Shown: piece by piece, positions 6,609-20,904 of the stretch
Layout: each line of letters opens with the position of its first letter
Numbering within the stretch: the stretch's first letter is position 1
Origin: a virus
Strand: one strand, 5' to 3'
IMG/VR virus record: IMGVR_UViG_3300033146_004797
Span: 1 to 27,264 of that record
Length of the DNA stretch: 27,264 nt
Notes under the pieces: model-generated
The model's database searches: none
The model's input: only the letters and a program-made list of their open reading frames with translations
Told to the model about the DNA's origin: nothing
Program-made: the position numbers and the translations under genes

Positions 6609-6953
6609 TTAAAATCCTATTAATTTAACTTTAAAATTAGTATCAGTATTAAGCTGGGAATTTATTTTACTTTCAAGATGCTCGCATATAAATTCTTCAC
6701 ATTCTTCTAATACCGCACTTTTTTTGTATGTAGCGTTATTGTCATTGTCCCAAATTTTAATACCCGGATTGTTTGTCCAAGAATTTTCAGATGCTTGTGT
6801 GGACTCATAAAATTTAGCTGTACTGTCTTTCGTTAAATTAAAAATAATTCCAATAAATTGATACGAAACAAATGTTCCGTTGTTATTAAAATTAGATTTT
6901 CTTACTACTGCGTTTAAATTTCTTTTGTTTACTGTTACTGTTACATTTTTCAT
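6609..6953 (-). CDS. Unknown 114-residue protein, minus strand
   Basis: One of two minus-strand genes in the window. The protein starts MKNVTVTVNKRNLNA, has a beta-rich first half and an acidic helix with two cysteines (ECEEFICEH) at about 83-91, and ends in another beta-like segment. No family is recognised and there is no signal peptide. A near-consensus Bacteroidota promoter lies upstream on the minus strand (7029-6998), giving a predicted leader of about 40 bases. Two TTTGCAAA palindromes sit just upstream of that promoter. Its place between terL and portal, with its own regulation, suggests expression at a different time from the virion genes. Accessory (moron-like) is the fairest label. 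Confidence 0.72.
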   Translation of the reverse strand: MKNVTVTVNKRNLNAVVRKSNFNNNGTFVSYQFIGIIFNLTKDSTAKFYESTQASENSWTNNPGIKIWDNDNNATYKKSAVLEECEEFICEHLESKINSQLNTDTNFKVKLIGF

Positions 6954-6997
6954 AATTTAATAAATTTAATTGTTTATATTTCGTTTTATTTATAGTA

Positions 6998-7029
6998 CAA
7001 ATATAATACAAAAAAAAACAATATGCAAG
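6998..7029 (-). promoter_or_regulatory. Bacteroidota-type promoter for the minus-strand gene at 6609-6953
   Basis: On the minus strand the sequence reads CTTG (7029-7026), 20 bases, then TATATTTG (7005-6998). This matches the Bacteroidota consensus TTTG-N19/20-TAnnTTTG with one change in the -33 box and a perfect -7 box. Transcription would start near 6990, about 37 bases before the ATG. It is the best complete promoter seen in the window. Confidence 0.65.
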
Positions 7030-7032
7030 TTT

Positions 7033-7060
7033 TTTGCAAAGTTTTTTGCCTTTTTGCAAA
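7033..7060. repeat. Two identical TTTGCAAA palindromes exactly 20 bases apart; candidate regulator sites
   Basis: TTTGCAAA occurs at 7033-7040 and 7053-7060, each inside a longer near-repeat (TTTTTGCAAAGTTTTTT). A degenerate third copy (GCAAGTTTTTT) precedes them at 7025-7035. A spacing of 20 bases is close to two helical turns, so two dimers would bind the same DNA face. They lie immediately upstream of the -33 box of the minus-strand promoter, a position typical for an activator or for cooperative repression. The small HTH protein encoded next door is the obvious candidate ligand (inference). Confidence 0.5.
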
Positions 7061-7119
7061 GTTTTTTTAAACAGGTTGACTTAGAGGGGATTGCGGACGT
7101 ATCATATCATTGATATAAA

Positions 7120-7320
7120 TCAATTTTTTCTATAATCTAAAAAAACAGGGTTGCAAGCTTTGTAAACAACCGAATAACTGCAATTATATTTTTCCATTAA
7201 TTCGTTGTATGTCGCACCCTTTTTTTTTCCAATATTCATTTCCCACTTATTCCTAACTATTTGTTTTTGATTATCGGTTAAACTATCAAAAGCAAATTTA
7301 TAAAACTCTATTGTTCCCAT
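7120..7320 (-). CDS. Small helix-turn-helix protein, probable transcriptional regulator
   Basis: This 66-residue protein has LTDNQKQIVRNKWE at about 14-27, then a conserved-looking HTH at about 37-56 (TYNELMEKYNCSYSVVYKAC). It resembles the last helices of sigma region 4 or of small response-regulator-like DNA-binding domains. The gene reads leftward and diverges from the portal operon across a 106-base gap that holds TAnnTTTG boxes in both directions. An autoregulating switch between this island and the head operon is a natural inference. A perfect 6-base inverted repeat (ATATCA-T-TGATAT, 7104-7116) lies just beyond its stop. The HTH reading is by eye; the targets are unknown. Confidence 0.7.
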   Translation of the reverse strand: MGTIEFYKFAFDSLTDNQKQIVRNKWEMNIGKKKGATYNELMEKYNCSYSVVYKACNPVFLDYRKN

Positions 7321-10297: not shown

Positions 10298-11332
10298 ATG
10301 GCTTATACAGACCCAACTGTTTTACTTACGTTTCAAGGGGGTAAAACACTTACAGAATTACGAGACACGAAATATGGAATGCTAAGAGCGTTTGAAGCAT
10401 CAACGCCTTTTTACAAGGGTTTAACACCTGAATTAAAGACATTTCTTGCGACAAGAATGGATAGAACGGCACAAATTGCGGCTATTCCCGAAACCATAAT
10501 TACAACAACAACAAGCGAAAGTTTTACAATTCCTGCAAATTTATCTGTATCGGAAAATAAAACAGCAACGATTTACACGTTGTTTTCTGGTTTTAAAGTT
10601 TACGACGCGATGTTTGTTGAAAATCAAATTAGCAAAGAAGAATATATTAGAAACAAAATGGAAGAGATAGATAAAGCTTTTGCAAAAGCAAAAAGTGCAA
10701 CTCTATTAACCATTTTAGATGGGGCGAAAACGCAAGTCTTACCCAACAACCCTGCTGCAAATGACGGTATTACTTTTGCTGCATCTACATTAACAGCTAC
10801 TTTAGCAGCACAACAAGCACGAATTTTTAATAACTTAAATGTTATTGCAGAAGACAACGGACTTGAAAATGATAAAATTTTTCCTGTTTCTCCCGGCATT
10901 CAAGTTTTGGAAAATTACAACGACATGTACGGCATGCAAAACACTAAAGACTTGCAAAATCAAGGTTTTATCCCTGCGATTTTACCCGATAATCGTATAA
11001 CCAATACCGCTCGTTGGACTGGCTATTTGTTCGAGAAAGGGGCATTTGCGGCGGTTGATAATATGAAATATGACTTTAGAGTAGGCACAAAAGTAAACGA
11101 AGCCGTTTTTGGTGTCTCTAATACAATTTTGCCAAAATTAGGGTCGCAAGTTGGTACATTTTACAACAAATTTGCAACAGATGCTAGTGGATTACAGGGA
11201 ACTACATCAACATGGAAAATGACAACAGGAGAAGAATTTGGATTTATCCATAGATATGCTGTATTAACTCCTTATAATTCGGACATTACTACAAAATTAA
11301 ATCCTGTTATTAAAATTGTAGGAGCTGTTTAA
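10298..11332 (+). CDS. Major capsid protein (HK97-fold type)
   Basis: The 344-residue product builds the icosahedral shell. Supporting evidence is position (portal, scaffold, capsid), length and composition. Unlike its neighbours it is rich in Ala, Thr and Gly, and it has the helical stretch ISKEEYIRNKMEEIDKAFAK at about 111-130, followed by LLTILDGAKTQVLP, a pattern common to Bacteroidota-phage capsid proteins (spine helix). An acidic-aromatic N-terminal arm and a beta-rich C-terminal half fit the HK97 fold. Codons for Ala and Gly raise the local GC content. The gene has the shared 13-base leader motif and is followed by two hairpins, as expected for a heavily expressed gene. No cleavage site could be identified. 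Confidence 0.88.
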   Translation: MAYTDPTVLLTFQGGKTLTELRDTKYGMLRAFEASTPFYKGLTPELKTFLATRMDRTAQIAAIPETIITTTTSESFTIPANLSVSENKTATIYTLFSGFKVYDAMFVENQISKEEYIRNKMEEIDKAFAKAKSATLLTILDGAKTQVLPNNPAANDGITFAASTLTATLAAQQARIFNNLNVIAEDNGLENDKIFPVSPGIQVLENYNDMYGMQNTKDLQNQGFIPAILPDNRITNTARWTGYLFEKGAFAAVDNMKYDFRVGTKVNEAVFGVSNTILPKLGSQVGTFYNKFATDASGLQGTTSTWKMTTGEEFGFIHRYAVLTPYNSDITTKLNPVIKIVGAV

Positions 11333-11506: not shown

Positions 11507-11857
11507 ATGACTATTTTAAATATTGCAAATTCGATAAATTTTGCAGATTTGACAACTACATATAACCTCGCTGAAGGAGATAATATTTTTTCTTGCGAAA
11601 TTTCCACAAAATCAGTTGCTATTGCTGTTAATGCAAAAAGCTTAACGGGAATATTAAATGCAACTATAACGATTTATGGAAGCAATACAAATGTTTTTGC
11701 AGATGCTGTAAAAATTGGTGCAACAATTACACTCTCTACAACGCCGTATAATTCTTTAATAGTTAAGAATGTATGGAATAGCAGGTATTTGTTCGCAGAA
11801 TTAACTGTAAATGGGTGTACAGGTGGGACTTTATTAATACCTATAACATTAAAATAA
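11507..11857 (+). CDS. Small beta-rich virion protein, possible head decoration protein
   Basis: The 116-residue product (from the ATG at 11507) is rich in Thr, Ile and Asn with alternating hydrophobic residues, as in beta-sandwich proteins. It shows ATITIYGSNTN at about 58-68 and a closing GCTGGTLLIPITLK. The frame opens earlier, at 11477, but that start lies inside the right arm of the terminator hairpin, so the downstream ATG is preferred. It follows the capsid gene, where decoration or cement proteins are usual, and stops 2 bases before the LamG protein gene. No named family is recognised; decoration is inferred from position and fold type. Confidence 0.7.
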   Translation: MTILNIANSINFADLTTTYNLAEGDNIFSCEISTKSVAIAVNAKSLTGILNATITIYGSNTNVFADAVKIGATITLSTTPYNSLIVKNVWNSRYLFAELTVNGCTGGTLLIPITLK

Positions 11858-11859
11858 TT

Positions 11860-13194
11860 ATGGAATATCAAAATTTAGATGAAAATTTCAAAGTCGCAGA
11901 TATTGGAGATGTTGAAAGTGGGAACTATACGGAGTTTAAAGAAGACGGAACAATGGTTCTGCATGGCGAAGCAACAACTTATGAAGATGTTGCTATTGCG
12001 GGGTTGTCTTTACCGCCAACAGGCGTGGCAGCTCCTGAAATGAAATTATTTAAAGCAAAAACAGGTACAATATCAGATTATGCAATAAAATTTAATGGAG
12101 GAAACCCAAATGCAACAATTCCAGACAATTCTGCTTATGATTTTTCTGCAAATCAAGAATTTAGTTTAGAAACATGGATAAAACCGATAAATTCAACATT
12201 TAATTGGATTTATCAAGCAGGTTTTTTAGATATATATTTTTCTGGAAATTCTTTAGAAATTGGATTAGACGGCACATACCGGACAGCTGGGGACAGTTTA
12301 GGACTTAATGCTAAAAATCATTTAGTTATTACATTTTCTCCTGCAACATCTACAAATACAAGAATAAAAGTGTATGTAAATGGTGTTTTAGGCACTAATT
12401 TTACGGTTAAAAATACAATAAAAAATGGTACAGGGAATCTATATATTGGCTCATATACATCTTCTGGGTGGGATCTAGATGGAATTATTGATGAATTTAG
12501 AATTTATGATTTTGAACTATCTCAGAGTCAAATTGATGCAATGTTTAATCTTGGAAAAGGAACGGCAAATCTGCCAACAGGCGTTAATTTTACTACTGTA
12601 GGGGCTAGAGCAGTTGCACAGTTTAAATGTAACGAAAATACAGGACTAACAACCGCAAACGCAAACACAATAACAGGAGATGTTATGACATTGCACGCAA
12701 ATACTACATGGACAAATGGACTTATTGGAGACGATGGAATTTTTGGATATTACGCATGGCATTTTAAAGCGGGTAAAGATGCTTTATTAATTTTTAATTA
12801 CGAATTTCTACATAAATTAAAGTTGCAATCAGATGCAAGCCCACATGCCCATTGGTCGCCTACAACAGACATGGGGACAAGCGAGGTTTTATGGGAAATT
12901 GGTTTTACATGGGCTAAATTAGGGTCTAAATTCCCCGATTTAACCATTTATCAATCAAAAAATGAAATTGTCGCAACGGCAAAAGAAGCTTTTGAACATT
13001 TAATGACGGTATTTGCGGACATAGATTTAAGTACAAATACAAGTGTAAGTTCTATTTTAGGCGGATATATTGCAAGAAGAGGTACAGACGCACAAGACAC
13101 CTATACAGGTGAAGTGGCGTTGCATTATGTGGATTTGCACATGAAAGTCGATAGCGTTGGAAGCGAAGGAATGTACACAAAATATAATTCTTAA
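11860..13194 (+). CDS. Virion surface protein: conserved phage beta domain with an inserted LamG/concanavalin A-like domain
   Basis: In the 444-residue product, residues about 20-45 (YTEFKEDGTMVLHGEATTYE) and 290-444 look like the two parts of one widespread phage structural domain. The C-terminal part contains PHAHWSP (328-334), VLWEIGFTWA, DTYTGEVALHYVDLHM and a closing DSVGSEG. Between them, about residues 74-235 form a LamG-type domain: FSLETWIKP, HLVITFSP, IKVYVNGV and GIIDEFRIYDFELSQSQID are its classical strands. LamG domains bind glycans or proteins, so the insert probably displays an adhesion surface on the capsid or neck. The ATG at 11860 is preferred over an earlier in-frame ATG at 11815 that overlaps the previous gene. 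Adjacent to the capsid and decoration genes. Exact virion location unknown. Confidence 0.8.
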   Translation: MEYQNLDENFKVADIGDVESGNYTEFKEDGTMVLHGEATTYEDVAIAGLSLPPTGVAAPEMKLFKAKTGTISDYAIKFNGGNPNATIPDNSAYDFSANQEFSLETWIKPINSTFNWIYQAGFLDIYFSGNSLEIGLDGTYRTAGDSLGLNAKNHLVITFSPATSTNTRIKVYVNGVLGTNFTVKNTIKNGTGNLYIGSYTSSGWDLDGIIDEFRIYDFELSQSQIDAMFNLGKGTANLPTGVNFTTVGARAVAQFKCNENTGLTTANANTITGDVMTLHANTTWTNGLIGDDGIFGYYAWHFKAGKDALLIFNYEFLHKLKLQSDASPHAHWSPTTDMGTSEVLWEIGFTWAKLGSKFPDLTIYQSKNEIVATAKEAFEHLMTVFADIDLSTNTSVSSILGGYIARRGTDAQDTYTGEVALHYVDLHMKVDSVGSEGMYTKYNS

Positions 13195-13205
13195 AATAAA
13201 AAAAG

Positions 13206-14546
13206 ATGAATTATAATATTTCTAAAATACAAGCAAATTTTAAAAGTCTAATTGGATTTAAAATGCCTTTTGACCCCAATTTGCAAATATTATCTGACGT
13301 TTTAAAACATTCGGATAGTGGAATAATTATAAACGATGGTTTAATTCCATATTTAACTTTGCAAAACATTAAAGATTTAGGACTAAATTATAATTTATTT
13401 AATTTTAATGAATATAACAGTTTAACAACTTATATAACAAATAATAGAATTAAATATCCTTTCCCTGTTTTCGATGCAACAAAAATTTATGAGGAAAATG
13501 AATGTGTAATTTTAAATTCGATCGGTTATCGAAGTTTAATAAATGCAAATCTGAATAACGAACCAGATAAAAATTTAGACAAATGGAGTGTAACTGCCGA
13601 GAATTATTTAATTTTTGATAGTTTACAAAATGCAAATTTAAACAACCAGCCAGATATAAACCCAAATTTTTGGATAGAAATAAATTTATTTAGTGCATTT
13701 TTAGAAAGTAGATTAAATTTTGCAACTACAAATGTTTTACAAAAAGTAATCGAGACTCAAAATAGGATTTTAGAACAAAAAAAACTGTATTATGGAATCG
13801 GCAAAGTTTCGGATACAATAACAGAAAACACAAAATGGGCAGGATTAAGATTTAATTTATTCAGGAACAAGAATATAAAGGTAAAAATTAATAGAATTGG
13901 TTTACATTTTACACAGCCAAATACGGACTTAACATTTTATTTATATAATCAGAATACTTTAATTTCAACTTTTACGGCTTCAAATATTTCAGACGATTTT
14001 ATTTGGGTAAACGTTAAAGATATTGAAATTACTGGAGATAAAGCAGGAAGTTGGTATTTGTTTTATAAACGTTCTGACGTTTATGGTTTCGCGGTAAACA
14101 ATAAAATAAATATTAAAAAAAATACAAGTAATTTTCTTGAGCTAAATCAATTTGAAGTTCCAGATGGAACGGATTTAAAAACGATAAATGAATCTGATTT
14201 TAAGTATTATCAGAGTAATATTGCAAATATAGATTTTTCAGTTGTGCCAGACCTGACTAATTGGCTGATTTACAACAAGTTGATTTTTGCGAGTGCTATT
14301 AAACTCCAGTTTGCAATAGATATTTATAAAATGTTTTTAGCAAACGAAAATGTCCGAGCTAATAGAACAGAACGAAATATAAATATACAAGATTTAAGAA
14401 CTTCTATTTATTCTAAAGATGCAGAAACGATATTAAAACAATTATTAGAAGAAATTGAAAATTTAAGATTAAGTTTTGGAAAAGCAAAAATTGATAATAT
14501 CAATTTGCCGAAAGACAAATTGTTTAAACAAAATATTTTTATATGA
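13206..14546 (+). CDS. Virion protein with two carbohydrate-binding-like repeats, neck/head-tail region
   Basis: In the 446-residue product, residues 95-156 contain a tandem pair, YRSLINANLNNEPDKNLDKW (108-127) and FDSLQNANLNNQPDINPNFW (137-156). They resemble the Y-x-N-x-N-x-P-x-W core of chitin-binding-like CBM5/12 modules. Residues about 205-305 look like a beta-sandwich (TFYLYNQNTLISTF; SWYLFYKRSDVYGF). The C-terminal 100 residues are helical and contain a possible coiled coil (ILKQLLEEIENLRLSFGK). The gene lies between the capsid/decoration group and a neck candidate and ends in an ATGA overlap. A particle-surface or neck protein that binds glycans is the best reading; a true family name is not known to me. 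Confidence 0.72.
   Translation: MNYNISKIQANFKSLIGFKMPFDPNLQILSDVLKHSDSGIIINDGLIPYLTLQNIKDLGLNYNLFNFNEYNSLTTYITNNRIKYPFPVFDATKIYEENECVILNSIGYRSLINANLNNEPDKNLDKWSVTAENYLIFDSLQNANLNNQPDINPNFWIEINLFSAFLESRLNFATTNVLQKVIETQNRILEQKKLYYGIGKVSDTITENTKWAGLRFNLFRNKNIKVKINRIGLHFTQPNTDLTFYLYNQNTLISTFTASNISDDFIWVNVKDIEITGDKAGSWYLFYKRSDVYGFAVNNKINIKKNTSNFLELNQFEVPDGTDLKTINESDFKYYQSNIANIDFSVVPDLTNWLIYNKLIFASAIKLQFAIDIYKMFLANENVRANRTERNINIQDLRTSIYSKDAETILKQLLEEIENLRLSFGKAKIDNINLPKDKLFKQNIFI
13527..13673 (+). repeat. Tandem protein-level repeat (two CBM-like units, 29-codon period)
   Basis: Bases 13527-13586 and 13614-13673 encode two 20-residue units sharing xxSLxNANLNNxPDxNxxxW. Both are inside the 446-residue virion protein. 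The repetition is clear in protein and partial in DNA, so the duplication is not recent. Confidence 0.7.
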
Positions 14547-16959: not shown

Positions 16960-17440
16960 AAACCTTTTTAGCAAAACTACTTTCAAATTAGTTCTAAAAG
17001 AAATTTTTGAAAGTGGAACAATTGATGATGAAGTCATTGGAATAATTCAAAAACGATTATACAACATTGGAGTAGATGCAGAAAACAAAAAATTAAGTAC
17101 TGATTACTCAGGAGATTTGTCAGAGTTTTATGCAAATTCAACTTTTAAAATAAAAAAGGATATTGGACAAAAATATGATAATGTAACGTTACACGATTCT
17201 GGTACTTTTTATGAAAGTTTTGAGGGGCTGACAAATAATAACGGTTTTGATATTGTTGCAGATTTTGACAAAGAAAATGGGCATATTAGAAATAATTTCA
17301 CATTGCTTTATTCTTCAAATGAAGATTTTGAACAAAAAATTTTAGATATGACAGTAGAAGAAAAAGCAGAATATGTGAAAACTGAATTATTGCCTGAATT
17401 TTTAAATTATTTACGTTTTGATTTTAATAAAATAAAATGA
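16925..17440 (+). CDS. Conserved-looking tail-region protein upstream of the tape measure, GTG start
   Basis: The 171-residue frame has GTG at 16925 as the first plausible start, with no ATG until deep inside, and overlaps the preceding gene by 35 bases. Residues about 72-95 (DNVTLHDSGTFYESFEGL) form a motif that I associate with proteins lying before tape measure genes in Bacteroidota phages. The rest is mixed alpha/beta and ends LPEFLNYLRFDF. It overlaps the tape measure start by 4 bases (ATGA), indicating tight coupling. Precise role in the tail is unknown; a tail assembly or neck factor is possible. Confidence 0.72.
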   Translation: MQNFKRKINLLKNLFSKTTFKLVLKEIFESGTIDDEVIGIIQKRLYNIGVDAENKKLSTDYSGDLSEFYANSTFKIKKDIGQKYDNVTLHDSGTFYESFEGLTNNNGFDIVADFDKENGHIRNNFTLLYSSNEDFEQKILDMTVEEKAEYVKTELLPEFLNYLRFDFNKIK

Positions 17441-20400
17441 TATTTAACTATAACGAAATATTTGCCCCTGATTTGATTTCCGGTTTAGAGAAGATGAATA
17501 CATCTTTTAATAAGATTGCAGAATCCGTAAATAAAATGGCAACAACAATTGAGATAAGTTATGAAAAAACAGGTAAAGCATATTTAAAAAATAAACAAGC
17601 AATTGATAGATTATTAAAAGCTACAGAATTACAATTAAAACTAGATAAAGAAAAAAGCAAATTAGATAAAGAAACTCAAAAAATAATAAATAACAAAATA
17701 AAAGCCGAACAAAAAGAAAAAGTAGCTACAGAAAATTTAGTTAAAACAGAAAAAAAACTTGTTAAAGCAATAATAGAATTAAATAAATCCAAAAAAGAGG
17801 GTAAGAATATTGAACAAGGTTATACAAAAGTAATAGAAACACAAAAAAATATTATAGCAAATACAGTAATTGCACATGGTAAGCTGAGTAACGAGTACGC
17901 AAAAGAAAAAGCAAAGTTAAAAGAAATACAAACAGAACAAAAAGGATTTAACCAACAACAAAAACAAGTTAAAAAATTTACAGATGTTGCAGATGGCTCG
18001 TTGGCGAAAATGACATTAGAATTAGGTAAATTAAAAACACAATATAGAAATGCAAGCGAAGCTGGGAGAAACAAATTAACCCCATCAATCCGAAAATTAG
18101 ATGCTGAAGTGAAAAAATTAAATGCAGATATTGGAAATTTTCAAGGAAATGTTGGAAATTATAAAAGTGCATTTTCAAAACTTTCAGGCGTTGCTGGTGG
18201 TTTGGGGTTGTCTCTAGGTGGGGCGGCTCTGGCAATGAAAGGAATGCAGATTGCTAAAGACGTTGGAGAAACTTTGCGAAACTTTGAAAAAACAATGAGC
18301 GAAGTAAAAGCCATAAGTGGGGCGTCAGGAGAAGAATTTGAGACTTTAACTAATCTTGCTAAGGATTTAGGTAGGCAAACAACGTTTTCAGCCTCTCAGG
18401 TCGCCGAATTAGAAATTGAATTAAGTAAATTAGGATTTTCTGCACAAGATATTGATGAAGTAACAGAAAGTGTTTTGTATTTAGCACAAGCAACAGGTAG
18501 CGACCTTGCTACTACTGCAAATGTAGCTGGAGCCACATTAAGAGGTTTCGGGTTAGATGCCAGCCAAATGGGACACGTAACAGATGTTATGGCTTTATCG
18601 TTTTCTAGTTCTGCATTAGATATGGAAAAATTCAACACTGCAATGAGTACCGTTGCACCAGTTGCACGGACTTTTGGTTTTTCTCTAGAAGATACAACAT
18701 CTTTATTAGCTCAATTAACAAATGCTGGGTTTGACGCCTCAACAGCAGGAACATCTTTAAGGAATATAATGCTAAATATGGCAGACCCTGCTGGGGATCT
18801 AGCAACAGCTTTAGGCGAGCCAGTAACAGACCTTCCAAGTTTGGTAGCGGGTTTTGAAAAGCTTAAAAGCGAGGGTATCGACCTTGCAGGAGCTTTAGAC
18901 CTAACAGATAAACGAAGCGTAGCGGCATTTGAACAATTCCTTGCAACAGGCGAGCAAGCCCTTGTTCTAAGCGACAATTTAGCGAACGCAGACGGTTCAG
19001 CGATGCAAATGGCAGAGACGATGACAAACAATCTGGACGGAGCTATGAAGGGTTTAAGCTCCGCATGGGAAGGTTTAATTTTAGGAGTTGAAATGGGAGA
19101 CGGTAAAATGGGTAGTTCTATTGTTACAATAATAAATTTGATCTCTGAAGTAATGAATTTAGCAACAGATGCAAATTTTCTAGGAAAACAATTTAACACC
19201 TTATTAACACCGTTATTTGATATTTTCGATATTTTTACAGGTCTAGGAAATATATTATCTGTTTTTTCTAAAGAGACAGAAGAGGGTACAGATAGTATTC
19301 AAGGTCTAACAAAAATAATGGATATTTTAGTTTTTACTTTTAAAATTAGTTTAGCCCCACTTACAACAGTAATAAAAATATTAAAATTCCTTTTTGAAAT
19401 TGTAGAAAAAGGAATTGTAGGGAATAAAGATAAAATTAAAAAATTTGGAATTATATTTGAACGAATGGGTCTAATTTTCAGCCAATTAGGGGACATAATA
19501 AAAAAACTATATAACGACAATATAAAACCTCTGATAGACAGTTTAAATAAGGGGGGGGACTCTGTTGATATGCTAGGTGTTGCTTTAGATGGCTTATTTT
19601 GGTATTTAGATACTGTTACAACAGGATTTCAAAAAATGCTTACAGCGTTACATGTTCTAAAAGTTGAAAATGATGCAGTTATAAATTCCTTTAGCTCTTT
19701 AGAAGCTGTTATGCCATCAATTGCGGCAGTCATGGGAAATGCCTTTGACGAAGAGGCTTATAAGGCAGAACTTGCAGCATCTAGCATAATAACCGCAAAT
19801 AATAACGTAATAGAAAGCGAGGATGACGTTACTGAGAATTTGCGAAATAATGCAGATGAAAGACAAAAAATTAGAGATAAATTAAATTTAACGACAGCAC
19901 GAGAATATTATTACAGGGAATTAGCAGAATTAGAAAACTATTTAGAAAATGCTTATATTTCCGAAGAGGAGTTTTTGGAATTAAAAAAACAAATGTATAT
20001 TGATTATTTTGGAGAAGGTGAAGAATTGCAAACAACACATATAAATTTAATTGAAGACAATCAAGTTCAATTAAATGAAAATTTATTAGATCTTCAGAGA
20101 AGATTAGGAGAACAAACAATTGCCGAACAAAAAAGGAGTTTTTCCGATTATTTAGATTTAATTTTAGGAGATAGAGAGAAATTAAAAAATTCTTTAAAAG
20201 ATTTTTACGAAACGGCAATAGACGAAACAGGAAAATATTTAAAAGCACAATTAGATGCGGCAAAAGAACAACAAAGCATTAGTAACAAGAATATTAATAA
20301 TATAAAAAACGAATTAGAAACAGAATTAAAAACTCAAGAATTAAGGCAAAAATCCGGAGAAGCTTACGATTTAATAAAAATTGAGAATTTAAAAAAGAAT

Positions 20401-20904
20401 TTAGAAAAAGAACAGCAAATTGAAGCTGAAAATGCAGAAAAAATAGCAAAAACACAAAAAAAATTAATTTATTTTCAACTAGGAATTGATACTGCATCAT
20501 CAATCTCAAGTTTGATTGCGGCGAGTGAAGGAAATCCTATGAATTTATTGACAAGTGGGGCGGCTGGAATTTTGCAATTAACAATCGGGCTTGCAAGAAT
20601 ATTTGGCGGTTTTGCAACCGCACGAGCACAAATAAAAGGGTTTAAAAGTGGAATTATTGGGATTGATGGAGACGGAACGGAAACAAGCGACAGTATCCCT
20701 GCATTTTTGTCTAAAGGAGAAAGCGTAATGACCGCAAAAGAAACAAGGGAAAATCTAGGAGCTTTAAAATTAATGCGGGCGGGGTTTTCTGTAGATAATT
20801 TAATCTTAAATAAGGATAATGAATTAGATAGAAGAAGGAACGAATATTTAAAACAAATGACAAAAAAAACAAAACAAAATTTGTATCATAGAACTTTAAA
20901 TTAA
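17437..20904 (+). CDS. Tape measure protein (TP901-type)
   Basis: The tape measure fills the tail lumen and sets tail length. This is by far the largest gene (1155 residues). The N-terminal 40-240 is coiled coil (KLDKEKSKLDKETQKI and following). A glycine-rich hydrophobic stretch lies at about 250-270. The TP901 core domain spans about 285-480, with GRQTTFSASQVAELEIELSK at 312-331, YLAQATGSDL and GFDASTAGTSLRNIMLNMAD. Further helices and hydrophobic segments follow to about 690, then another coiled coil. The C-terminus has GTETSDSIPAFLSKGESVMT, a motif common at the end of Bacteroidota-phage tape measures. At roughly 0.15 nm per residue the tail would be about 170 nm long (inference). ATGA overlap with the upstream gene. 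Confidence 0.95.
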   Translation: MIFNYNEIFAPDLISGLEKMNTSFNKIAESVNKMATTIEISYEKTGKAYLKNKQAIDRLLKATELQLKLDKEKSKLDKETQKIINNKIKAEQKEKVATENLVKTEKKLVKAIIELNKSKKEGKNIEQGYTKVIETQKNIIANTVIAHGKLSNEYAKEKAKLKEIQTEQKGFNQQQKQVKKFTDVADGSLAKMTLELGKLKTQYRNASEAGRNKLTPSIRKLDAEVKKLNADIGNFQGNVGNYKSAFSKLSGVAGGLGLSLGGAALAMKGMQIAKDVGETLRNFEKTMSEVKAISGASGEEFETLTNLAKDLGRQTTFSASQVAELEIELSKLGFSAQDIDEVTESVLYLAQATGSDLATTANVAGATLRGFGLDASQMGHVTDVMALSFSSSALDMEKFNTAMSTVAPVARTFGFSLEDTTSLLAQLTNAGFDASTAGTSLRNIMLNMADPAGDLATALGEPVTDLPSLVAGFEKLKSEGIDLAGALDLTDKRSVAAFEQFLATGEQALVLSDNLANADGSAMQMAETMTNNLDGAMKGLSSAWEGLILGVEMGDGKMGSSIVTIINLISEVMNLATDANFLGKQFNTLLTPLFDIFDIFTGLGNILSVFSKETEEGTDSIQGLTKIMDILVFTFKISLAPLTTVIKILKFLFEIVEKGIVGNKDKIKKFGIIFERMGLIFSQLGDIIKKLYNDNIKPLIDSLNKGGDSVDMLGVALDGLFWYLDTVTTGFQKMLTALHVLKVENDAVINSFSSLEAVMPSIAAVMGNAFDEEAYKAELAASSIITANNNVIESEDDVTENLRNNADERQKIRDKLNLTTAREYYYRELAELENYLENAYISEEEFLELKKQMYIDYFGEGEELQTTHINLIEDNQVQLNENLLDLQRRLGEQTIAEQKRSFSDYLDLILGDREKLKNSLKDFYETAIDETGKYLKAQLDAAKEQQSISNKNINNIKNELETELKTQELRQKSGEAYDLIKIENLKKNLEKEQQIEAENAEKIAKTQKKLIYFQLGIDTASSISSLIAASEGNPMNLLTSGAAGILQLTIGLARIFGGFATARAQIKGFKSGIIGIDGDGTETSDSIPAFLSKGESVMTAKETRENLGALKLMRAGFSVDNLILNKDNELDRRRNEYLKQMTKKTKQNLYHRTLN

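Follow-up and report, generated by a model that had tools for sequence, protein, structure and literature searches.

Phage T4 Hoc is an Ig-like capsid decoration protein that carries beta modules on the capsid (PMC10385173). The RcGTA head spike, which sits on capsid pentamers by way of its base, combines two head-displayed proteins, a jelly-roll base, Rcc01079, and a head fibre, Rcc01080, that attaches particles to the capsule (PMC7296036). Our literature search found no published description of a LamG domain seated in the loop of a jelly-roll domain, which is the architecture of the 444-residue protein analysed here. This protein is encoded in a 27,264-base metagenomic virus record, a fragment that is termed the window throughout.

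The window protein would resemble Hoc in being a particle-attached protein with protruding beta modules, which in Hoc are of the immunoglobulin type (PMC10385173). They differ in their architecture: in Hoc, Ig-like domains follow one another on a domain that binds the capsid, whereas the LamG of the window protein lies inside a jelly-roll loop. In Pfam, Laminin_G_3 (PF13385) is the only family that matches the 444-residue protein, and no Ig-fold repeats of the Hoc type were found in it. By gene position, the two-protein layout of the RcGTA spike is comparable to a two-gene cassette in the window, the small partner in the window differing in that it is without a known homologue. In addition, a tblastn search with the LamG alone revealed LamG-like sequence in Synechococcus phage S-RIM8 and Pelagibacter phage HTVC022P, with matches that cover part of the LamG. 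We consider the window protein a probable virion surface protein, in which a jelly-roll domain holds a probably permuted LamG in one of its loops, and which would be displayed on the particle, plausibly the head, and bind glycans.

Gene organization of the window

The gene of the 444-residue protein starts with an ATG at 11860 and stops at 13194, beginning two bases past the stop of a small ORF. Its position among the neighbouring genes is as follows.

10298..11332, + strand: gene of a head protein, probably the major capsid protein, with a match to phrog_7231 (head and packaging, E=1e-31)
11510..11857, + strand: small upstream ORF of 115 residues from its ATG, a possible partner, ending two bases before the LamG gene
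11860..13194, + strand: gene of the 444-residue protein, a jelly-roll domain with an inserted LamG (ORF listing, translation and sequence)
13206..14546, + strand: next conserved gene, 446 residues, phrog_8189, directly after the capsid gene in relatives

A homologue of the head protein in Croceibacter phage P2559Y bears the annotation putative phage capsid protein, and Bacteroides and Elizabethkingia phages gave further tblastn matches. The window also encodes a portal, a terminase and a tape measure protein (17437-20904). In four relatives, the capsid gene is directly followed by the homologue of the 446-residue gene, with a gap of ~0.1 kb or less; the two-gene cassette composed of the 115-residue ORF and the LamG gene, which stands between the capsid gene and the phrog_8189 gene in the window, is absent from all four.

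The spacing of the small ORF suggests that it belongs to the same cassette as the LamG gene. It has no homologue among the phage records, PHROG or the fetched loci, nor is homology to it detectable in the small neighbouring genes of L014 and L019, two loci that encode insertless homologues of the jelly-roll domain. Elsewhere in the window (6609-7320), two short opposite-strand ORFs are located between the terminase and portal genes.

The two flanks match one contiguous domain

The 444-residue protein can be divided into two flanks and an insert.

11893..12069, + strand: N-flank, residues 12-70, composed of a leading motif (NYTEFKEDGTMVLHGEATTYEDV) and the first two jelly-roll strands
12070..12729, + strand: whole insert, residues 71-290 (220 residues), a LamG core and a tail that occupy the loop joining strands 2 and 3
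12730..13191, + strand: C-flank, residues 291-444, the remaining jelly-roll strands

The boundaries of the insert were derived from an alignment with four other inserted members and a profile of the insertless domain, in which the break falls at profile position 35|36. Direct search of viral contigs found no close relatives of the 444-residue protein, its C-flank or the capsid protein. The search motif D-x-Y-x3-V-x5-D-x-H-x3-D-[ST]-x-G-[ST], built from the window protein and one Rhodobacteraceae phage protein, retrieved 29 viral contigs and seven genome contigs, most of which encode the domain uninterrupted. At least 62 distinct full-length insertless homologues were found, with an insertion loop of only 2-10 residues, and none of the 62 carries an insert of at least 8 residues at any other site.

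Against a profile built from 21 insertless homologues only (A4), the C-flank scored 108.6 bits over positions 36-179, and the two flanks joined together scored 115.2 bits. The N-flank alone reached 0.4 bits against this earlier profile, a value that is not significant because the profile started too late. Against an upstream-extended N-terminal profile of 48 insertless homologues, it scored 31.7 bits (E=6e-12), compared to a maximum of 5.3 bits for its shuffles, 0/491 of which were as high. The same N-terminal profile gave 19-40 bits for the N-flanks of the three other inserted proteins that are complete. As both flanks match adjacent parts of a contiguous insertless domain, both can be assigned to one domain; judged from these profile comparisons, the N- and C-flanks are two pieces of a single jelly-roll domain of ~180 residues.

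An earlier note on this DNA had read residues about 20-45 and 290-444 as one common phage beta domain with a LamG gained between them. Its limits of the flanks proved almost exact, and the profile scores of both flanks, the insertless homologues and the match of the joined flanks to the contiguous domain all agree with the single-domain reading. The description as a common phage domain holds in part: the domain is widespread in uncultivated phage contigs, but profile searches of the flanks and insertless homologues found no Pfam or PHROG family model for it, and a tblastn search of the annotated phage records with the C-flank alone weakly matched a single phage protein. We regard it as an undescribed, widespread jelly-roll domain of virion type that is covered by neither Pfam nor PHROGs.

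Predicted structures of the insertless domain and the full-length protein

For structure modelling, the insertless proteins were split into N- and C-terminal pieces; plain MAFFT misplaced the N-terminus. An insertless homologue (L014:12657-13223, - strand) was predicted by AlphaFold to form one beta sandwich, with a pLDDT of 86 and a pTM of 0.84. The insertion site corresponds to the loop 34-41 of this model, which connects the strands 28-33 and 42-47. Structural similarity search against the PDB revealed weak similarity to CBM15, CBM27, CBM61, CBM22 and the PP2 lectin among the 50 matches listed; such Foldseek and PDB matches, to toxins, capsids and lectins, are at the level of the fold and were given weight for the fold class alone. 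In BFVD, the predicted viral structures most similar to the model belong to collagen-repeat proteins, one of Catovirus at 41% identity and one of Klosneuvirus at 33%, with TM values of 0.83-0.86.

The full-length AF2 model of the 444-residue protein, with a pLDDT of 68.8 and a pTM of 0.50, shows the same series of strands interrupted by the LamG. The C-flank has a pLDDT mostly of 84-96 over residues 301-430, and the LamG core mostly of 70-87, whereas residues 234-295 are mostly below 50 and confidence is low at both junctions. Structure prediction agrees with the earlier proposal in that the insertless domain is one sandwich whose strands are interrupted by the LamG in the full model; as the junctions are poorly modelled, we infer the packing of the N-flank on the C-flank from homology. 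Flanks that form separate domains were rejected: the insertless homologues are contiguous, and the AlphaFold model of the insertless domain speaks against separability.

The LamG insert and its probable circular permutation

LamG folds bind glycans or proteins. Two segments of the insert could be distinguished.

12094..12534, + strand: LamG core, residues 79-225 (PF13385, E=9.7e-18)
12598..12729, + strand: tail of the insert, residues 247-290, similar to the strand pair found ahead of the core in ordinary LamG domains

The Pfam match of the core scores 65.2 bits against a cut-off of 27.6. Among the structures that Foldseek matched to the AF2 model are pentraxins, an arabinanase domain and sialidase lectin domains, which share the concanavalin-like fold, and PHROG matches to the LamG regions are mostly without a function label. 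The insert interrupts the jelly-roll domain of the 444-residue protein, so that the LamG indeed lies between the flanks and not at an end, as had been claimed. The limits proposed for it, 12079-12564 (residues 74-235), cover the Pfam core but miss the tail, the complete insert spanning residues 71-290.

In many Bacteroidota proteins, the ordinary LamG has a strand pair, (G)L-x-A-Y-Y-x-F...D-S-S-G-x-G, before the core, which the Pfam model does not include. In the inserts, a similar strand-pair sequence follows the core, immediately ahead of the point at which the host domain continues. Comparison of the tail with the leading strand pair by hhalign gave a score of 19.7, against a mean of 8.3 and a maximum of 13.0 for column shuffles (0/200 as high); the match itself is short and weak, with a probability of 22.7% over 35 columns. 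From these alignments the LamG is probably circularly permuted. A permuted LamG would have its ends close together, which suits insertion into a loop, and the host domain would not need to open to hold it.

The insertion recurs at an identical site

A LamG occupies the identical site (profile position 35|36, between the predicted strands 2 and 3) in five proteins including that of the window. The other members are L020/L044, L025/L043, L120 and L070, the L070 copy being cut at its 5' end. The five inserts comprise ~212-221 residues and share the linker N-x-G-x-G-T-x2-[LV]-P-T-G-[VI]. No domain other than LamG was seen at position 35|36 among the homologues examined, and none of the annotated phage records matched the inserted protein of L025. 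Several tandem LamG domains are found in a 1,700-residue phage protein (L050:5083-10359, + strand).

In the C-flank tree, the five inserted members fall in three places, with three changes on the best tree, and a single clade of all five is not rejected (p-AU 0.305); one gain followed by losses and several gains are both compatible with this tree. The presence of the same insert at the same site in four other phages supports the modular gain suggested beforehand. As the insertless domain is widespread and the combination recurs at an identical loop, insertion of a LamG looks like a reusable adhesive add-on, by which a phage particle could be given an extra sticky arm. It provides a clean natural case of a whole beta domain held in a loop of a second one; the setting is phage virion-type proteins, for which insertless relatives are numerous and the site of insertion recurs.

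This architecture could also be read in two other ways. If the LamG were an ordinary domain of a multidomain chain, the flanks would be two unrelated small domains, which fits the ill-defined domain packing of the full-length AF2 model; but both flanks match adjacent, non-overlapping parts of a domain that is contiguous in the insertless proteins, and the cut falls in one and the same loop in all five inserted members, making this reading highly improbable. In the other reading, the insert might consist of a standard, non-permuted LamG core with what is left of a second LamG behind it. One of the tandem LamGs of L050 is indeed followed by a similar strand-pair sequence, and the hhalign match is short, so this arrangement has some claim to attention; nevertheless, we think it unlikely, as the end of the insert is identical in position in all five proteins, directly ahead of the second part of the host domain, and PTG(V/I) is conserved. 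We continue with a probably permuted LamG in the loop of a single jelly-roll domain.

Putative display on the particle and function

In the model that we propose, the N-flank contributes strands 1 and 2 of the jelly-roll and the C-flank the remaining strands, with the LamG as a separate lobe in a variable loop. The particle would display the protein, plausibly on its head, in view of the cassette between capsid and connector-type genes. From the same context, the LamG lobe may bind a glycan on the host cell or in its surroundings, adding avidity before the tail engages. The most likely function of the 444-residue protein would accordingly be that of a particle-displayed, glycan-binding adhesin. 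If the lobe is an adhesin, phages could gain stickiness while leaving their assembly interfaces untouched, and domain display could readily be tested at this loop.

Gene context differs among the relatives. In L012, the gene of an insertless homologue has a major head protein gene on one side and a head-tail adaptor gene on the other; in L019, another lies close to head genes, one gene away from a head protein gene. The LamG versions of L043 and L070 are close to endolysin genes, not head genes, so the head location does not generalise; judged from gene context, display on the head is plausible in the phage of the window, not as a general rule. In many homologues, the domain forms the C-terminus of long fibre-like proteins, or stands alone in small proteins.

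In addition, four histidines of the C-flank are invariant.

12811..12852, + strand: H318, H329 and H331 (LH...PHAHW), histidine in 68/68 homologues at each position
13138..13140, + strand: H427 (DLHMK), histidine in 68/68, a residue that the search motif itself requires in most rows

The C-terminal placement in long proteins raises the question whether the window protein belongs to the tail or to another host-attachment device, with the domain as a fibre tip, the LamG as part of a receptor-binding device and the capsid-gene neighbourhood incidental. The domain ends long fibre-like or collagen-repeat proteins in L008, L009, L010, L033 and L035, tail-fibre PHROGs match L008 upstream of the domain, and two LamG versions are near endolysin genes. 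By contrast, the 444-residue protein is without a long shaft, its gene has the capsid gene on one side and connector-type genes on the other, at a distance ahead of the tape measure gene (17437-20904) and of what follows that gene, and an insertless homologue occupies the same place in L012; we accordingly find a tail protein rather improbable. The histidines point to a different possibility, which might replace the adhesin explanation or add to it: they may bind a metal that stabilises the oligomer, or serve catalysis, with the LamG as a targeting module. Besides the four histidines, an arginine is invariant at one position in 68/68 sequences, and the T4 gp37 fibre tip holds iron through HxH pairs (PMC11705849), which makes a structural metal a fair guess, no more. 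Against it, H427 lies in the search motif, and, while many A4 members have a GxxxxPHxH-like spacing, the cupin criterion being G(X)5HXH, the 50 PDB matches listed included no conspicuous cupin or metalloenzyme. A metal site in this domain is a tentative reading at best, and it could hold together with the LamG adhesin, which we prefer as the explanation of the window protein.

Occurrence of the domain beyond phages

The giant-virus proteins of Catovirus CTV1 and Klosneuvirus KNV1, the predicted structures of which match the insertless domain, differ from the window protein in carrying collagen repeats. Their likeness at 33-41% identity suggests transfer between phages and giant viruses. The same jelly-roll domain also ends bacterial proteins (L037:2185-3249, - strand; L042:408-1493, + strand; L038:185-850, - strand; L059; L060), with Lutibacter, a Bacteroidales MAG and two other Bacteroidota genomes as carriers. 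Most of these proteins start with an apparent signal peptide. Among sampled Bacteroidota genomes, 3/395 have the domain.

A broader view would be that of a four-histidine, possibly metal-binding jelly-roll of phages, some bacterial secreted proteins and giant viruses, the tolerant loop of which captured permuted LamG lectins more than once and so gained an exchangeable adhesive lobe; taken as a whole, we hold this view to be speculative and on balance doubtful. In one further locus (L181:1284-1956, + strand), the domain is split over two overlapping frames, which cover profile positions 3-67 and 67-179; the split is due to a frameshift in the gene or else to an error in sequencing.
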